Source: Thermodesulfobacteriota bacterium (GTDB taxonomy: Bacteria > Thermosulfidibacterota > Thermosulfidibacteria > Thermosulfidibacterales > B14-G1). From it: DNA of 41,797 nt. Below the pieces are notes generated by a model. The model was given only the letters and a program-made list of their open reading frames with translations. It did no database searches and had not been told where the DNA came from. Position 1 is the stretch's first letter. Each line of letters starts with the position of its first letter. Where the stretch lies: NCBI GenBank assembly GCA_024274915.1, contig JAJSAC010000044.1, positions 1-41,797 of the forward strand. The letters run 5' to 3'. The position numbers and the translations under genes were made by a program. Positions 10,634 through 32,053 of this stretch are shown one piece after another.

Positions 10634-10800
10634 GACTCCCATCGGGAACCACCCCCCGACAACAGGAGCCAAAATGGTCAAGGAAGCTGAAAAAAACTCC
10701 TTCTCCCCTTACCCATTGCAATCTCTTCACCTTTTCCTTAGAATTTCCTCCAGAACAGGCGATGAGGTCCGCCTTTAACCGCCGCTTTACCGGCTGATGA

Positions 10801-10828
10801 CCTCTACCCCAAACCCAGGAGGTAGAGG
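10801..10828 (+). promoter_or_regulatory. Hairpin enclosing the ribosome binding site of the dynamin-like gene
   Basis: CCTCTACC at 10801-10808 is perfectly complementary to GGTAGAGG at 10821-10828. The loop carries the first half of an AGGAGGT Shine-Dalgarno (10817-10823) and the stem covers the second half. The ATG follows at 10830. The hairpin would limit ribosome access if it forms in the mRNA. Confidence 0.45.
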
Positions 10829-10829
10829 C

Positions 10830-12647
10830 ATGCAACCGCAACAATCGCAACAAATAAAAGGGGCCATCCCACCAAACCTGCGGGGGTGTGTAATGCACTT
10901 TGAGGAAGCCCGAGAAAGGATAACCCAGGCTGTAGCCACCCTAGCACCCATGGTCCAAGGGCAGGATCGGGAGGTGCTGACGGAGGTAGAGCGAAAGCTA
11001 AGGGAGAACAAATTCAATCTGGTGGTTCTAGGCCAGTTCAAGAGGGGCAAAACCACCTTCATAAACGCTTTGCTGGGTGAAAAACTCCTCCCTTCCGCCA
11101 TTCTACCCCTCACATCCATCGTCACCCTTTTGGAGTACGGGCCCCAAAAGGAGACAGAAGTCCACTTCATAGACGGGCGCATCAAGAAGATCGAACCTCG
11201 AGATATCCGTCTATACGTCACCGAAAAAGAGAATCCCAAGAATGAAAAAGGCGTAAAGTTCGTTCGAGTCCTTCACCCTGCTCCCATCTTGAAGAAAGGC
11301 ATCATTCTGGTGGACACCCCTGGAGTGGGTTCCCTCTACGAGAACAATACAGATGTCACCTACGGCTTCCTCCCCCGGGTGGACGCCGGGGTGTTCCTTC
11401 TCACCGTAGACCCACCCCTGTCCAAAGAAGAGATCGCCTTCTTAAAGGACGTCTACCCCCATGTGGAAAGGATCTTTTTCGTACTAAACAAGGTGGACTA
11501 CGTGGACTCCGAAGACCTCCAGGAGGTCATGGAGTTCGCCCTGGGCAACCTCAAAGAGGCCTTGGGATCCAACCACATCCCCATATACCCCCTCTCGGCC
11601 AAGATGGCCCTGGAGGGGCGCACCAGCAGGGACGAGGAAAGGGTAGCCCAAAGCGGCATCACAGACCTAGAGGTGGCCCTGGAAGACTTCCTTTTGAAAG
11701 AGAAAGGGAGCATTGTGTTGCGGTCTTCGTCCAACAAGGTCCTCTCCCTTCTCTCCACCCTCCTTTTCCAGGTAGAGCTGGAAATCAAAGCAGCCACCAC
11801 TCCTCTGGAGGAACTGGAAGAAAAAATCAGGAGATTTCAAGAGATCAAAGGTGAAATCGCCCAGGAAAGGCGAGACAGCGAGTTCCTCTTCAAAGGGGAG
11901 ATAGACTCCCTCATTAAGATCGTCAACATGGACATGGAACGCTTCCAAACCCAGAAAATCCCAAAAATCTACGCCAAGCTCCTGGAAGTTTTCCAGGAGA
12001 ACAAGCACAGGGGATCCCTGGAGCTATCCAAACTCTTGGACCAGGCCATGAAAGAGATTCTGGTGAAAGAGTTCGACCAGATGGTGATCCAAGAAAACGA
12101 AAAAGTGAATGTTGAATACAGCCGGATCGCCCGCCGCTTCGCCGACAAGGTGAACGACATCATAGATCGCCTCATGGCTCTGGCGGCGGAGCTCTTCGAG
12201 ATTCCCCTGGAGCGTTTCCAGGTGGAAGAGACTATCACCGAAGAGTCGGCCCTGTGGTATAAGTTGGAGGATCGCCCCAAGCTCTTGGATCTGGAAGGGG
12301 CAGGCAAATTCATCTCCTACTCTATCCTCCCCTCTACTGTGGTCCACAAGAAGATCAAAGGGGAGCTCCAGAAAAAGCTCCCAGAAAAGGTGGACATGAA
12401 CTGCGGCAGGGTGAGATCTGACTTTGTAGATCGTATAACCAAAAGTGCCATGGAGCTGCGCTGGGGCATGGAACAAAAAATGAACCAGACGGTAGCCTTC
12501 GTTGAGGAAGCGGTCCATAAGGCCATGAATCTCAGGGAGAAAAGCCAGGAAGAGGCAGAGGCAGCCCTTAAAGAACTGGCTACTAGAAAGTCCCTGTTGA
12601 AAGGCATCAAAGAACAGCTGAAAACCGTATTGGAGAGGGCGGCTTGA
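10830..12647 (+). CDS. Dynamin-like GTPase
   Basis: The 605-residue protein has a dynamin-family GTPase domain. The G1 P-loop GQFKRGKTTFINALLG is at about 68-83, the switch threonines lie in ILPLTSIVTL, G3 is VDTPGVGS and G4 is VLNKVDYVD. The helical rest of the protein includes EEKIRRFQEIKGEIAQERRD and KSQEEAEAALKELATRK, expected to form coiled-coil stalk or trunk bundles. No clear transmembrane pair is seen. Bacterial dynamins remodel or protect membranes, in some cases against phage; the role here is unknown. The ATG at 10830 has an AGGAGGT six bases upstream, better than the ATG at 10797. The stop overlaps the next start (TTGA), so a coupled operon continues downstream. Confidence 0.85.
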   Translation: MQPQQSQQIKGAIPPNLRGCVMHFEEARERITQAVATLAPMVQGQDREVLTEVERKLRENKFNLVVLGQFKRGKTTFINALLGEKLLPSAILPLTSIVTLLEYGPQKETEVHFIDGRIKKIEPRDIRLYVTEKENPKNEKGVKFVRVLHPAPILKKGIILVDTPGVGSLYENNTDVTYGFLPRVDAGVFLLTVDPPLSKEEIAFLKDVYPHVERIFFVLNKVDYVDSEDLQEVMEFALGNLKEALGSNHIPIYPLSAKMALEGRTSRDEERVAQSGITDLEVALEDFLLKEKGSIVLRSSSNKVLSLLSTLLFQVELEIKAATTPLEELEEKIRRFQEIKGEIAQERRDSEFLFKGEIDSLIKIVNMDMERFQTQKIPKIYAKLLEVFQENKHRGSLELSKLLDQAMKEILVKEFDQMVIQENEKVNVEYSRIARRFADKVNDIIDRLMALAAELFEIPLERFQVEETITEESALWYKLEDRPKLLDLEGAGKFISYSILPSTVVHKKIKGELQKKLPEKVDMNCGRVRSDFVDRITKSAMELRWGMEQKMNQTVAFVEEAVHKAMNLREKSQEEAEAALKELATRKSLLKGIKEQLKTVLERAA

Positions 12648-21694: not shown

Positions 21695-23719
21695 TCAGAA
21701 CTTTATCTTACCACCCAAATACCAGGAAGCATCGGGTGCTTGATATCCCTTCACCTCCTCATACTGGCGGTTAAAGATGTTCTCACCCTTCACGAATACC
21801 TCAAAATGGGAACAAACTTTAACGCTCACCTTGCCATCCACCACAGTATAGGAGCTGGCCCTGGACACCTTGGGATGGGTGGAGTTGTACCTGCTCACCC
21901 TGTCTCCCACAAACCGAGCCCCCAAGAAAGCTTTCACCTTGTCCTTCCAGGTGTAAAAGAGGGAAGCGCTCCACTGGTTCAGGGGCACTCCCTCCACCCT
22001 GCGGTGGTGTTCCCTATCCTCGGGGTTCACATAGGTGTAGCTGGCCTTCAAAAGCAGGTTGTCCAAAGGCCTAAGAGTAAGACCCAGCTCCACACCCCGG
22101 TCCACCACCGTGGAGATGTTCTCATAGGTTCCCAGCCAGGTGACAGGGTTATAGACATAGAGGATCTTATCCTTCACCGCCTCTGTGAAGAAAGTGAAAT
22201 CCAAAGCCACCTTGCGGGAGAAGAGATACTGGGTGAAACCCACCTCATAACTTTCTGCCTTCTCAGGTGTCAGGTTCCTGTTGCCCCCCAGGAAAAACCA
22301 GGCGGGATTGGGAGGGGCGTAGAGCTCATAGAGAGTGGGAGCCTTGAAGGCCGTGGCATAGCGGGCCCTAAAGATGGTGTCTGTGGCCTTCAAATGGTAA
22401 CTAACACCCAGATTGTAAGTCGTCCTTCCCCCAAACTCATCGGGATCATCGATCCTAAAACCAGCCAAAAGGGTAAGGCTATCCCAGAGCCTCAGCTCGT
22501 TCTGAGAATAGTACCCGATGAGCTGAGTCCTGCGGAAGGGAAACCTGGACCTATCCACAGTTGTGCCCAAGGGCCATCCTCCCCAGTAGCTGGCCGTCAC
22601 GATGTAGGAAGTGCTCTTTCCTTCATCCTCTCGATACTCATAACCCACTACCAGGGTATCTTTGACATTCTTCCTGTCTAGTAGGTGGAATGTATTCTGC
22701 CAATCTATCTTCTTTATCCTGCCCGTGTAGCTCTGGTAGCTCTCCAGTTGGTCTGTGACAAAGCCCCACCCCCAGTCGTAATGATCCATGGACTCAGGAT
22801 CCCAGCGGTCGCTGTATCTCCTCCTGGTATCTGACATCCCCAGCTTGAGCTGGCTTTCCCACCAATCAAAAGGGAGATAGGTGGCCGTTACGGTAAGGAC
22901 CAAATGATCCGTCTTCTGCCATTGGTTTGGATCATTCACCGACTCTTCCAAGAGCCAGTCATAGTCGTCGTACTGGACATCGGCGTTGGTGAACCTCAAG
23001 GTACCTTCCAGGCGCAGATTTTCCAGAAGATCTGTTCCCACCTTGAAAGCATAGCTATCGTTCCAATACCTGTCGTCCTTGGCCACGCCGTTGCTCTCCC
23101 GGTGAGAAACTGAAAGGGAATAGTCCAAGAGTCCCACCTTTCCAGACGAAGAAAACCGAGCCTGCCAGGTATCCATGGAACCCACGTAGCCAGATAGGAC
23201 AAATAAGGGCCTCCCTCTGCCCGTCTTGGTGACAATGTTGACCACACCGGCCATGGCATCAGAACCGTAGAGGGGGCTCTCAGGACCTCTCACCACCTCA
23301 ATGCGCTCAATATCATCCACAGAAAGGTCACCAAAGTCGAAAACCCCACCTATGGCAGAAGGATCGTTCACCTCCATGCCGTCTATCATGACCATCACCC
23401 ATCTGGAGTCCAACCCCCTGATCCTCAAGGAGGTGGTTCTACCTGGTCCCCCGTAGGCCTGAACGTAGAGACCCTCCACGTACCTTAGGACATCCGCCAC
23501 CGTCTCAAAACCTCTGGCCTCTATCTCTTTCTCCGTAATCACCGTCGAAGAGATGGGGAGGCTCTTGGCTGCCTCCTTCACCCTGGTGGCCGTAACCACC
23601 ACCTCCTCCATCCTCACCACTTTCTCCCCCGAGGTGTCTTGAGCCCAGGAAACCCCCGTCCACGCCAGGAAAGCCACCAGAAGAGTCCCCCACAACCAAA
23701 CTCTCAATTCTACTCGCAT
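21695..23719 (-). CDS. btuB: TonB-dependent outer-membrane receptor, BtuB-like
   Basis: The 674-residue receptor has a signal peptide (MRVELRVWLWGTLLVAFLAW to about SWA). A TonB-box-like segment EEVVVTATR follows. The plug domain runs through ISSTVITEKEIEARGFETVA, RIRGLDSRWVMVMIDGMEVN and RIEVVRGPESPLYGSDAMAG. The rest is a beta-barrel with many aromatic-flanked strands, ending GGKIKF with the terminal Phe of outer-membrane proteins. FKAPTLYELYAPPNP and LTPEKAESYEVGF are typical TonB-receptor motifs. The cobalamin riboswitch and cobO beside it make corrinoids the likely ligand. The ATG at 23719 follows GGAGGTGGGGA; the longer frame starting at 23809 would lie inside the riboswitch terminator and is rejected. 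Confidence 0.9.
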   Translation of the reverse strand: MRVELRVWLWGTLLVAFLAWTGVSWAQDTSGEKVVRMEEVVVTATRVKEAAKSLPISSTVITEKEIEARGFETVADVLRYVEGLYVQAYGGPGRTTSLRIRGLDSRWVMVMIDGMEVNDPSAIGGVFDFGDLSVDDIERIEVVRGPESPLYGSDAMAGVVNIVTKTGRGRPLFVLSGYVGSMDTWQARFSSSGKVGLLDYSLSVSHRESNGVAKDDRYWNDSYAFKVGTDLLENLRLEGTLRFTNADVQYDDYDWLLEESVNDPNQWQKTDHLVLTVTATYLPFDWWESQLKLGMSDTRRRYSDRWDPESMDHYDWGWGFVTDQLESYQSYTGRIKKIDWQNTFHLLDRKNVKDTLVVGYEYREDEGKSTSYIVTASYWGGWPLGTTVDRSRFPFRRTQLIGYYSQNELRLWDSLTLLAGFRIDDPDEFGGRTTYNLGVSYHLKATDTIFRARYATAFKAPTLYELYAPPNPAWFFLGGNRNLTPEKAESYEVGFTQYLFSRKVALDFTFFTEAVKDKILYVYNPVTWLGTYENISTVVDRGVELGLTLRPLDNLLLKASYTYVNPEDREHHRRVEGVPLNQWSASLFYTWKDKVKAFLGARFVGDRVSRYNSTHPKVSRASSYTVVDGKVSVKVCSHFEVFVKGENIFNRQYEEVKGYQAPDASWYLGGKIKF

Positions 23720-23749
23720 TCCCCACCTCCACAAAAAATTTTCCATAAA

Positions 23750-23787
23750 TAAAAAATCCCCGGCCCTCCCAAAGGAAGACCGGGGAT
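23750..23787 (-). terminator. Intrinsic terminator between cobalamin riboswitch and btuB
   Basis: On the minus strand ATCCCCGGTCTTCC pairs with GGGAGGGCCGGGGAT (GU pairs allowed) across a short TTT-type loop, giving a stem of about 14 bp. A run TTTTTTATTT follows. It lies 30 bases before the btuB start and just downstream of the riboswitch. The riboswitch therefore very likely acts by premature termination. Confidence 0.85.
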
Positions 23788-23864
23788 CGAGCAATCCTCT
23801 CCTACCCAACCCCTCACAGCCCCATTCCGCGAGGGCCTTTTACCGGCCAAAGCCGGGTGAGGCT

Positions 23865-24086
23865 CCCCCTGGGTCGGTCTCCTGGCTCCCGGATCGTCCT
23901 ACTCGCCGCCCCTTCCCACCAGTTGGCTCATGGCTGATGGCTCATAGCTGATAGCTCCAATCTTTTCGCCATGAGCCATGAGCTATGGGCTAATCCCGGC
24001 AGTGGGTATCTTTGCGGCTTTCGTCCCCGGTCACAGTGGCGGGTCCGCGCCGGACTTTCACCGGACTTCCCGTCACCCAGGGAGGA
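23865..24086 (-). promoter_or_regulatory. Cobalamin riboswitch upstream of btuB
   Basis: Read on the minus strand, the element has CTCCCTGGGT pairing with ACCCAGGGGG as helix P1. AAGTCCGGTGAAAGTCCGGC and GACCCGCCACTGTGACC then follow, with GGGGACGAAAGCC next and GGCGGCGAGTAGGACGATCC after the variable arm. The B12 box AGCCAGGAGACCGACC lies at 23872-23887. These are the conserved blocks of the adenosylcobalamin-class riboswitch. The peripheral arm (about 23923-23993) is unusual, being built of 7-bp repeats such as ATGAGCC and ATGGCTC. The downstream terminator implies that binding of cobalamin switches btuB off. Confidence 0.93.
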
Positions 24087-24154: not shown

Positions 24155-24386
24155 ACAGGACTTCCCCCAATTTTACCCTTTGGGATAAGGGCGGGGCGTT
24201 CCGACCGCAGAAATGATAGCTCATAGTTCATAGCTCGTAGTTCATGGTTCATAGCTCACAGTTGCTATCAGCCATGAGCCATGGGCAAGGGAGGAATGCC
24301 CCGCCCTTTCACTTGTTGGAAAGAAAAAATCCAGGATTCTGAACATGATGCCTTTACCAGGAAGGGAATTTTGGGGGAAGTCCTGT
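24155..24386. mobile_element. MITE-like element with heptad hairpin, copy A
   Basis: The 232-bp element is bounded by perfect 14-bp terminal inverted repeats, ACAGGACTTCCCCC (24155-24168) and GGGGGAAGTCCTGT (24373-24386). Inside, AAGGGCGGGGCGTTCC (24187-24202) pairs with GGAATGCCCCGCCCTT (24293-24308), with one GU pair if transcribed on the plus strand. These enclose tandem 7-bp repeats of the type CATAGTT/CATAGCT and then GCCATGA. No ORF with homology is inside. The right end abuts the cobA stop codon and the left end lies 10 bases from the btuB leader -35. No clear target duplication is visible. Copies B and C are at 29417 and 31881. Confidence 0.65.
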
Positions 24387-29416: not shown

Positions 29417-29674
29417 CCAGGAGTTCCCCCAGTTTTGCTCTATGGGTCAGGGCGAGGCGTTCCGACCGCAGAGATGATAGCTCATAGTTCATAGCTCGTA
29501 GTTCATGGTTCATAGCTCACAGTTGCTATCAGCCAGAGCCATGAGCCATGAGCCATCAGCTATCAGCCATGGGCAAGGGAGGAATGCCCCGCCCTTTCAC
29601 TCGTTGGAAAGAAAAAATCCAGGATTCTGAACATGATGCCTTTAACAGGAAGGGAATTTTGGGGGAAGTCCTGG
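29417..29674. mobile_element. MITE-like element with heptad hairpin, copy B
   Basis: The 258-bp copy lies between the thi4 and nadA promoters. The ends are CCAGGAGTTCCCCC (29417-29430) and GGGGGAAGTCCTGG (29661-29674), matching at 13 of 14 positions when inverted. AGGGCGAGGCGTTCC (29449-29463) faces GGAATGCCCCGCCCT (29581-29595). The heptad core is almost identical to copy A on its left arm and has about four more GCCATGA-type units on its right arm. The 75 bases inside the right end are nearly identical to copy A. Flanks share a rough CTTCYTT, which may be a decayed target duplication. Confidence 0.65.
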
Positions 29675-29746: not shown

Positions 29747-30640
29747 ATGGTTGATGAAATCACCAGACTCAAAAAAGAGAGAAAAGCCACCATAGTTGCT
29801 CACAACTACCAACTCCCCGAGGTCCAGGACATTGCAGACTTTGTGGGAGACTCCCTGGAGCTAAGCCGAAAGGCAGCAAAAACGGACGCTGAGGTCATTG
29901 TCTTTTGCGGGGTTCACTTCATGGCAGAGACAGCCGCCATTTTCTCCCCAGGGAAAACCGTGCTATTACCCGACCTGGAAGCAGGGTGTCCCATGGCCGA
30001 CACCATCACAGGAGAAGACCTCAGGAGAGAGAAAGAGAAGTATCCCCAAGCTACCGTGGTCTGCTACATCAACTCCACTGCCGAAGTGAAAGCCGAGTCC
30101 CACATCTGTTGCACTTCCTCCAATGCCGTGAACCTCATAAACAGCCTAGATAAAGACCGAGAGGTCCTTTTCGTCCCCGATAAATACCTGGGAAGCTACG
30201 TGGCCTCCGTCACTGGCCGGAAGATCTACCTATGGGCGGGCTTCTGCCCCATCCACGTCGCCATAGAACCCCATCACATCTTAGAGCAAAAGGAAAGGTT
30301 TCCCCAGGCCAAAGTTCTGGTCCACCCCGAATGCACCCCCCAAGTCATCGCCCTGGCCGACGAGGTGTTGAGTACAGGGGGGATGATAAAATACGCCCGG
30401 GAGAGCCAGGAAAAACTCCTTATCATAGGCACAGAGGTGGGCATCCTCCACCGACTAAAAAAGGAAAATCCTCATAAGACCTTTATACCTGCTTCCGAAG
30501 AGGCCATATGTCCCAATATGAAAAAGATAACCCTAGAAAAAGTCCTGGCCAGCCTGGAAACCATGGAGCCCCGGGTCACCGTTCCCGAAGACCTAAGGGT
30601 GAAGGCCAAGAGGGCCGTAGACCGGATGCTGGCCCTTTAA
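29747..30640 (+). CDS. nadA: Quinolinate synthase NadA
   Basis: NadA condenses iminoaspartate with dihydroxyacetone phosphate to quinolinate, using a [4Fe-4S] cluster, in de novo NAD synthesis. The 297-residue protein has the family start IVAHNYQLPEVQDIADFVGD. The three cluster cysteines are in LEAGCPMADTI, WAGFCPIHV and AICPNMKKI. VLVHPECTPQVIALADEV and TEVGILHRL are further NadA motifs. I chose the ATG at 29747, preceded by AGGTAGG; a TTG at 29729 would add six residues. No nadB or nadC is visible. The 3' end overlaps tonB by 4 bp, tail to tail. Oxygen-sensitive NadA fits an anaerobic host. Confidence 0.95.
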   Translation: MVDEITRLKKERKATIVAHNYQLPEVQDIADFVGDSLELSRKAAKTDAEVIVFCGVHFMAETAAIFSPGKTVLLPDLEAGCPMADTITGEDLRREKEKYPQATVVCYINSTAEVKAESHICCTSSNAVNLINSLDKDREVLFVPDKYLGSYVASVTGRKIYLWAGFCPIHVAIEPHHILEQKERFPQAKVLVHPECTPQVIALADEVLSTGGMIKYARESQEKLLIIGTEVGILHRLKKENPHKTFIPASEEAICPNMKKITLEKVLASLETMEPRVTVPEDLRVKAKRAVDRMLAL

Positions 30641-31479
30641 GATCCCTTAAGATCAAAGACCACAGGCACTTCCACCCAGTAGGGTATGGGCCGTCCCCTC
30701 TTCGTGGCAGGAGAAAAGCGCCAACGCTTCACCGTCTTTACAGCGGCCCTGTCCAGAATAGAGTAACCCGAAGACTTCACCAGCGTCACCTTGTCCACCA
30801 GTCCCCGAGGAGTGACCAAAAACCTCACCACCAGTCTACCCTCATACCCCCTCTTCCGGGCCAGGGGAGGATATGGGGGTTTATCCCTCACCAGGGGCAC
30901 GGGGGGAACAAGGCCCCCACCGCGGTGCTTACTATCCTTTCCATCCCCGGAAACACCTCTACCCCCACCATCCAAAATGGCAGAATAGCCCGCCACTAGG
31001 TCTTCTTCACCGTATCCTGGCTCATTCAGGATCCATGTTATTCCCCGTCCAGTGAGAGAAACCATGGATGAAGATTCCAACCCTTCCCGCTTAGAGGGCA
31101 CACCCCCCTGGACTGGACCCCGGCAGGCCTCACAATCCCGGTCCCTTTTCACAATCCTGGCCCTTTGGGCAGCTTTTGAGAAAAAAACCATCCTCTTCCC
31201 CGCCCCAGGCCTCACCTTGGCCTCCTCTTTCTTCAACGGAGAGACCACTCTAGAAGTAGACTTCCCCTTTGAGGCGGTTCTCTTTTTTTTAGAGGCAACC
31301 GCCCACCTCCCTCCCCCCTCACCCAGGAACCTCACCTGATAGACCTCTTCCCCCAATCGCCCCTCATGGAAAGAAAGCAAGAATCCCTGGGGTAAAAGGG
31401 AAAGCCCACAGGCCAGTAGCCCATGGATCAGCAGGGAAGCAATGTAGAAATACCAACCCCTATTCCCCAGTCCTAACAA
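30637..31479 (-). CDS. tonB: TonB energy-transducing protein
   Basis: The 280-residue protein has one N-terminal membrane segment (YFYIASLLIHGLLACGLSLL) and a long basic, low-complexity linker (ASKKKRTASKGKST and similar). The C-terminal TonB domain has PPYPPLARKRGYEGRLVVRF followed by LVTPRGLVDKVTLVKSSGYS and KTVKRWRFSPATKRG. It should couple the proton gradient to outer-membrane receptors such as the BtuB-like protein. The best start is a TTG at 31479 preceded by GGGAGGAGAAGG. The open frame to 31647 overlaps the riboswitch and is not used. A CxxC pair in DCEACRG is an oddity. No exbB/exbD is in the window. The riboswitch suggests a TonB dedicated to corrinoid uptake. Confidence 0.85.
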   Translation of the reverse strand: MLGLGNRGWYFYIASLLIHGLLACGLSLLPQGFLLSFHEGRLGEEVYQVRFLGEGGGRWAVASKKKRTASKGKSTSRVVSPLKKEEAKVRPGAGKRMVFFSKAAQRARIVKRDRDCEACRGPVQGGVPSKREGLESSSMVSLTGRGITWILNEPGYGEEDLVAGYSAILDGGGRGVSGDGKDSKHRGGGLVPPVPLVRDKPPYPPLARKRGYEGRLVVRFLVTPRGLVDKVTLVKSSGYSILDRAAVKTVKRWRFSPATKRGRPIPYWVEVPVVFDLKGS

Positions 31480-31575
31480 CCCTTCTCCTCCCAACCCCCG
31501 GAGATTAGGAGGCCAGAAGGAGAAGCTCCCCAGCCCATCCCCGAGGGCCTGTGGCCAAAAAAACCACGGGGAATT

Positions 31576-31806
31576 CCCTGGGTCGGTCTCCTGGCTCCCG
31601 GATCGCCCTACTCGCCGCCCCTTCCCGCCAGTCAGCTCATAGCTCATGGCTGACAGCTCATAGCTGATGAAAGCGCCTTTCTTCCGGCTATGAGCTACGA
31701 GCTATAAGCCACGAGCTAACCCAGCAGTGGGTCATGCGGCTTTCGTCCCCGGTCACAGTGGCGGGTCCGCGCCGGACTTTCACCGGACTTCCCGTCACCC
31801 AGGGAG
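31576..31806 (-). promoter_or_regulatory. Cobalamin riboswitch upstream of tonB
   Basis: This is a close copy of the btuB riboswitch. P1 is CCCTGGGT (minus strand, 31797-31804) with ACCCAGGG (31576-31583). The AAGTCCGGTGAAAGTCCGGC block, GACCCGCCACTGTGACC, GGGGACGAAAGCC and the B12 box AGCCAGGAGACCGACC are unchanged. The peripheral arm (about 31632-31719) is again a long hairpin of 7-bp repeats, but with different units. No strong terminator follows. A short CCAGGG-AATT-CCC hairpin with a bulge and TTTTTTT is present at 31560-31579. CTTCTCC (upstream of 31500) can pair with the GGAGAAG of the tonB ribosome binding site. Control may be transcriptional or translational. Confidence 0.92.
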
Positions 31807-31880: not shown

Positions 31881-32053
31881 CAGGACTTCCCCCCACCTCC
31901 TTGAAACGGGTAGGACGGGGGCGTTCCGACCGCAGAGATGATAGCTCATAGTTCATAGCTCGTAGTTCATGGTTCATAGCTCACAGTTGCTATCAGCCAT
32001 GAGCCATGAGCCATCAGCTATCAGCCATGGGCAAGGGAGGAATGCTCCCCTCC
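31881..32053. mobile_element. MITE-like element with heptad hairpin, copy C (right end lost)
   Basis: The left end CAGGACTTCCCCC at 31881 and the heptad core (about 31939-32031) match copies A and B closely. GGGGGCGTTCC faces GGAATGCTCCCC with a bulge. After 32053 the similarity stops, and the right terminal repeat found in A and B is missing. Like copy A it sits immediately upstream of a cobalamin-riboswitch promoter, so this whole block may have been duplicated together. Confidence 0.55.

Follow-up and report, generated by a model that had tools for sequence, protein, structure and literature searches.

The window analysed here, a 41.8-kb stretch of DNA (41,797 nucleotides), derives from a genome designated G000, whose cobalamin riboswitches carry handles such as C37a and C37b. 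The minus strand of the window encodes a BtuB-like TonB-dependent receptor (21695-23809) with Plug and beta-barrel domains (PF07715 and PF00593). The leader of this gene contains a cobalamin riboswitch aptamer, riboswitch A (RF00174; 23855-24095, minus strand), which matches positions 1-189 of the model, its full length, with a score of 87.9 bits (cut-off 31.5). The riboswitch belongs to class I and contains both the B12 box and the conserved core. An intrinsic terminator (23755-23788, minus strand; folding z -4.65) lies downstream and is the probable expression platform. Since the core is intact and a terminator follows, riboswitch A is presumably functional, as far as can be predicted from its sequence.

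The part of the aptamer that lies between CACUG and GGGAAGG, both conserved, is expanded into an arm of 82 nt (23918-23999, minus strand), in which heptads fold back round an unrelated loop. Read on the plus strand, the first half of the arm is TTGGCTC ATGGCTG ATGGCTC ATAGCTG ATAGCTC, followed by an unrelated spacer and then by ATGAGCC ATGAGCT ATGGGCT, the complement of the first-half heptads. The unit consensus is the degenerate heptad RGCYATS facing its own complement. The original prediction had placed the heptads at 23923-23993, inside the riboswitch; they are found there, within the RF00174 match, although the arm as a whole is larger.

A second cobalamin riboswitch, riboswitch B (RF00174; 31564-31817, minus strand; 83.7 bits, model 1-189), lies upstream of a TonB_C-domain gene (30637-31647, minus strand; PF03544). 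It is equally heptad-armed, its expanded arm being a fold-back of 98 nt (31627-31724, minus strand), and had been overlooked earlier. A third one (G000:C29:10379-10659; 88.2 bits) has a heptad arm of 103 nt and precedes a gene in which a domain search identified a periplasmic-binding-protein domain. Heptad arms are present, in consequence, in three out of three cobalamin riboswitches of this genome (82, 98 and 103 nt). The window also contains a fluoride riboswitch (RF01734, 55.5 bits) at 10749-10813 on the plus strand, at the start of the ORF 10797-12647.

A dispersed heptad family and its carriers

The heptads of the arm belong to a vocabulary that recurs throughout the window. The heptad 20-mer, allowing up to three mismatches, has 37 matches in the window, while shuffled sequences average 0.34 and never exceed 2. 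The criterion for a period-7 tract, at least 21 of 28 lag-7 identities, was reached by 81 segments of the 41.8-kb window and by 0 in any of 20 simulations; the resulting tracts are confined to five places, the two riboswitch arms and the cores of three MITEs. The search for heptads elsewhere in the genome, which had been proposed as a check, gave 158 exact matches to the 20-mer pattern RRCYRTRRRCYRTRRRCYRT compared with 0 for the reversed control, most of them belonging to MITE copies. The nearest relatives have 0-4 matches to the 20-mer pattern. Of 386 genomes sampled across the domain, 16 contain a stricter 22-mer, and the heptad vocabulary is therefore wide but sporadic.

Three intergenic elements of the window had been described as sharing this vocabulary in their cores. 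This is indeed the case, and the elements are copies of a MITE, which had gone unrecognised. Copy 1 (24156-24385, heptad core at 24214-24289) is located 60 nt upstream of riboswitch A; copy 2, also with a heptad core, occupies 29418-29673; and copy 3 (31881-32045), with a heptad core and a right end that is truncated or diverged, is located 63 nt upstream of riboswitch B. None of the three is assigned a strand. The MITE is about 230 nt long, and its CAGGACTTCCCCC ends enclose a heptad hairpin core and an inner inverted repeat (GGGCGGGGCGTTCC/GGAATGCCCCGCCC). About 40 or more copies of the family were matched in the genome. The CAGGACTTCCCCC ends are present in most of the 20 copies inspected, and target duplications of 9-10 bp flank several members of the family (e.g. 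L064, L069 and L071); a clear target duplication was not found for the three copies of the window. All three cobalamin riboswitches have a MITE copy 48-63 nt upstream, a placement that looks more frequent than expected by chance. The relative G004 has related elements whose heptad cores are shorter (L125, L127, L129 and L130).

Heptad arrays outside MITEs are common in G000 and in the related genome G001, where they are found behind stop codons, round terminators, beside a tRNA gene (L105) and in an epimerase ORF. The last of these (L101, G000:C20:1300-3000, at about 806-868) consists of nine heptads, 63 nt in total, inserted within a nucleotide-sugar epimerase gene without shifting its reading frame, and adds 21 amino acids, AMSREPSAISHEPPATSHEP, ahead of the conserved FDAVINLAA segment. 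At an orthologous site lying between stop codon and terminator, the three species G000, G001 and G002 (L104, L118 and L123) harbour heptad arrays of differing length, and those of G000 are complementary arrays placed on either side of the terminator hairpin. Arrays in the epimerase ORF, after stop codons and round terminators indicate, therefore, that heptads invade tolerant sites generally. Comparison of 20 heptad loci with Rfam revealed no overlap with other structured RNAs, the sole match being the tRNA beside an array.

The conserved array end GAGCYAACT was considered as a possible sign of a cassette and rejected, as in most genomes its whole-genome counts barely surpassed the reversed control, and its matches lie for the most part outside arrays. 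Further heptad vocabularies have been observed in the same clade (L106, L107 and L121; GGGACCG / CTGTCCC, GGGCAAT and GGTGAAA).

Compact and expanded arms in related and distant genomes

Heptad arms are also found in relatives of G000, with lengths of 92 and 89 nt in G004 and 65 nt in one riboswitch of G002 (G002_C114). Compact arms of 13-15 nt are present, within the same order, in G001, G002_C19, both riboswitches of G003, G005_152a and G005_152b, and both riboswitches of G006. The arm of G008 has 33 nt and no heptads, and G005_177 has a divergent, heptad-free structure. The alignment with riboswitches of relatives, another of the checks originally proposed, shows arms mostly of 13-15 nt and no ordinary helix conserved in sequence. 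Because the outgroups are compact, the compact arm is most simply regarded as ancestral.

Both types of arm coexist among orthologs, as defined by the downstream gene. The receptor group has a heptad arm in G000 and G004 and a compact arm in G002_C19 and G005, while the TonB-like group has a heptad arm in G000, G004 and G002 and a compact arm in G001, G003 and G005. Two pairs of leaders combine a compact and a heptad arm, G001_C204 with G000_C37b (86% identical) and G002_C19 with G004_a (88% identical), and in both the members differ mainly in the arm and in the far-upstream flank. Compact-armed orthologs of the same gene keep the same terminator. The receptor encoded by G002_C19 shares 90.6% identity with its counterpart in G004, a member of another genus, and 69% with the one in G000, so that this 4-kb contig (L047) looks laterally transferred or misbinned; the pair formed with G004_a is still valid as two close leaders.

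The same arm is built from a different heptad in G232, a genome placed in another phylum by its kinship label. There the arm reads GTTTCGA GTTGCGA GTTTTGA GTTTCGA facing its complement (heptad GAGTTTY), and it folds at -52.5 kcal/mol. GAGTTT-type heptads have 107 matches in G232 versus 5 in its congener G361, in which the orthologous riboswitch is compact-armed, with a leader 87.5% and a downstream protein 86% identical to those of G232. A possible third case, suggestive at the level of sequence, is G192, with CCGTTAA-type heptads in a neighbouring optional arm; this family has 33 matches in the congener G324 and is nearly absent from G192 itself.

Among 75 riboswitches, the eight highest period-7 z-scores (3.1-6.3, the next being 2.2) correspond to G000 (three), G004 (two), G002, G232 and G192, in a sample that was not random, since G232 had been taken for the presence of the window's heptad elsewhere in its genome and long riboswitches were fetched purposely. 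As for the other unrelated genomes rich in the window's heptad, an RF00174 match is absent from G234 and G190, and the riboswitches of the rest do not contain that heptad.

Folding of the arms and origin of the expansion

In the predicted fold, each heptad arm prolongs the normal hairpin considerably, and the arms are stable in comparison with shuffled sequences (folding z -2.5 and -7.1, the latter for arm B). It had been suggested that a 7-nt register would let the pairing slip without being lost. In agreement with this, permutation of the heptads within each half left the mean computed energy about unchanged; in four of five arms the permuted mean was slightly more favourable than the observed energy. 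Since the folding energy withstands changes in heptad order, the pairing is, in these models, a property of the heptad vocabulary and not the result of selection for register; in-register covariation or optimisation of the arm was discarded for lack of any optimisation in the permuted comparison. Fold-back characterises 6/6 arms of the clade (G000, G004 and G002) versus about 5/17 of the other non-MITE arrays (Fisher 0.005), a hand-classified contrast drawn from an incomplete census that includes non-independent paralogs. As all six arms fold back and only some of the other arrays do, the arm would act as a filter, accepting repeats only as a closed helix.

Taken together with the orthologous compact/heptad pairs and the distinct heptad of G232, the genome-wide heptads and the compact arms of relatives favour the original prediction, namely colonisation of a tolerant riboswitch loop by a family of genomic repeats. 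Judging from the sequence comparisons, dispersed STRR-like heptad arrays quite probably colonised this arm and were filtered for hairpin formation. In the proposed mechanism, the ordinary 14-nt variable hairpin of a class-I riboswitch would be replaced by an array of a dispersed heptanucleotide repeat. The arm would tolerate growth because it points away from the ligand-binding core, and only self-folding arrays, made of heptads followed by complementary heptads, would be retained because they preserve the closed helix. The 7-nt period would render pairing insensitive to the order of units or to their loss. The arm itself is probably nearly neutral, and its spread could involve slippage, template switching or recombination between arrays, as well as exchange between paralogous riboswitches and between lineages.

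It is conceivable, with a lower probability, that the family gained the arm a single time and that gene conversion and lateral transfer spread it, with no repeated colonisation within the clade. A common base, CYGG-RTTAGC / GCYAACTRGY, is present in the expanded arms of G000 and G004, and among 15 loop pairs a single one, C37b/G004_a, shows weak similarity (p 0.004). Because of these two features, a single gain followed by spread, instead of repeated colonisation within the family, may account for the heptad arms of both genomes. The evidence of transfer at G002_C19 points in the same direction, as do the two riboswitches of the window, which are 90% identical over 90 nt and paired in the core tree. 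However, near-outgroup compact arms occur in both genera (G001, G002_C19 and G003), and a single gain thus needs loss and near-exact restoration unless exchange is invoked. Moreover, the loops are mostly unrelated, and G232 is independent whichever view is taken.

An explanation based on selection of the long arm for a regulatory effect, such as delayed co-transcriptional folding of the platform or protein binding, seems unlikely. None of the three riboswitches of this genome lacks the long arm, and it always forms a stable hairpin, as would be expected in that case, but orthologs of the same gene keep the 14-nt arm together with the same terminator, the order of the heptads is not optimised for pairing, and heptads also occur at unrelated sites.

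An origin of the arm from a MITE that inserted into the riboswitch loop and then decayed is very doubtful. The MITE core contains the same heptads, in some 40 matched copies, and one MITE accompanies each riboswitch at short distance. However, the arms have no inner inverted repeat, and MITE terminal inverted repeats and target duplication, looked for at the arm borders, were not found. The sole blast match between arm and MITE aligns heptad to heptad (E 4e-4), MITE-free heptads are common in G000 and G001, and G232 has a heptad of its own; a decayed-MITE origin is largely contradicted. Finally, an ordinary riboswitch helix with periodicity by chance can be set aside almost entirely: the arm does form a helix, but neither the matches and tracts in excess of the shuffled, reversed and simulated controls nor the top period-7 z-scores among the riboswitches compared fit this explanation.

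The colonisation of a riboswitch arm by dispersed heptads can be compared with several known systems. Heptamers are over-represented in many bacteria (PMC4679880, PMC4692102). STRRs have been reported inside cyanobacterial RNase P RNA genes, according to the title of Vioque 1997 (via PMC2858038), the parallel that had been drawn at the outset. Like the STRR/heptanucleotide repeats of Calothrix, Nostoc, Xanthomonas and Beggiatoaceae (TAACTGA), the heptads described here are tandem, dispersed, mainly intergenic and sporadic across phyla. Unlike STRRs, the arm vocabulary RGCYATS is degenerate, often arranged as a fold-back and located in a riboswitch arm. The likeness is one of behaviour, and descent from cyanobacterial STRRs is not claimed. 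Rickettsia palindromic elements (RPEs) are found in frame in ORFs and also in tmRNA and M1 RNA (RNase P RNA) (PMC2229807). The heptad family likewise occurs in frame in an ORF and in a structured RNA; however, an RPE is a 105-146-bp element with inverted ends, whereas the riboswitch arms are tandem heptads without ends. In the same way, the intergenic heptad carriers of the window share terminal inverted repeats with bacterial MITEs, whereas the riboswitch arm has none. The riboswitches agree with class-I RF00174 in their full match, B12 box, conserved core and downstream terminator, and depart from the usual form in one variable arm, which has 82-103 nt of heptads where about 14 nt are usual.

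Repeats in structured RNAs are already known. Since no report of heptads in cobalamin riboswitches was found in the open-licence literature searched, the riboswitch target and the natural compact/expanded pairs appear to be new. These arms illustrate how dispersed repeats may lengthen a regulatory RNA while its core stays intact. Length variation in the peripheral arms of riboswitches is usually described without an origin, and dispersed heptads provide one source, in two phyla. Furthermore, the natural pairs, with a 14-nt and an 82-98-nt arm on the same core and platform, suit tests of the effect of arm length on riboswitch kinetics, and fold-back arrays may flag tolerant sites within structured RNAs. 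Should the arrays change folding, repeat turnover would yield regulatory variation between strains. The broader proposal, in which fold-back heptad arrays are a recurrent route for the growth of peripheral regulatory-RNA arms in unrelated bacteria and the 70-90 nt gained measurably alter co-transcriptional folding and the response to B12, is speculative and rather improbable.

Other types of repeat were observed in cobalamin riboswitch arms of other genomes. The compact arm of G361 (L156, G361:C19:3517-3717) reads TCCTGAGCTTGCCGAAGGA, which presumably resembles a palindromic repeat common in many bacterial genomes. In G143 (L157, G143:C1:3174242-3174516), the riboswitch arm is tandemly repetitive, with units of about 14 nt that include the CACTG motif itself.
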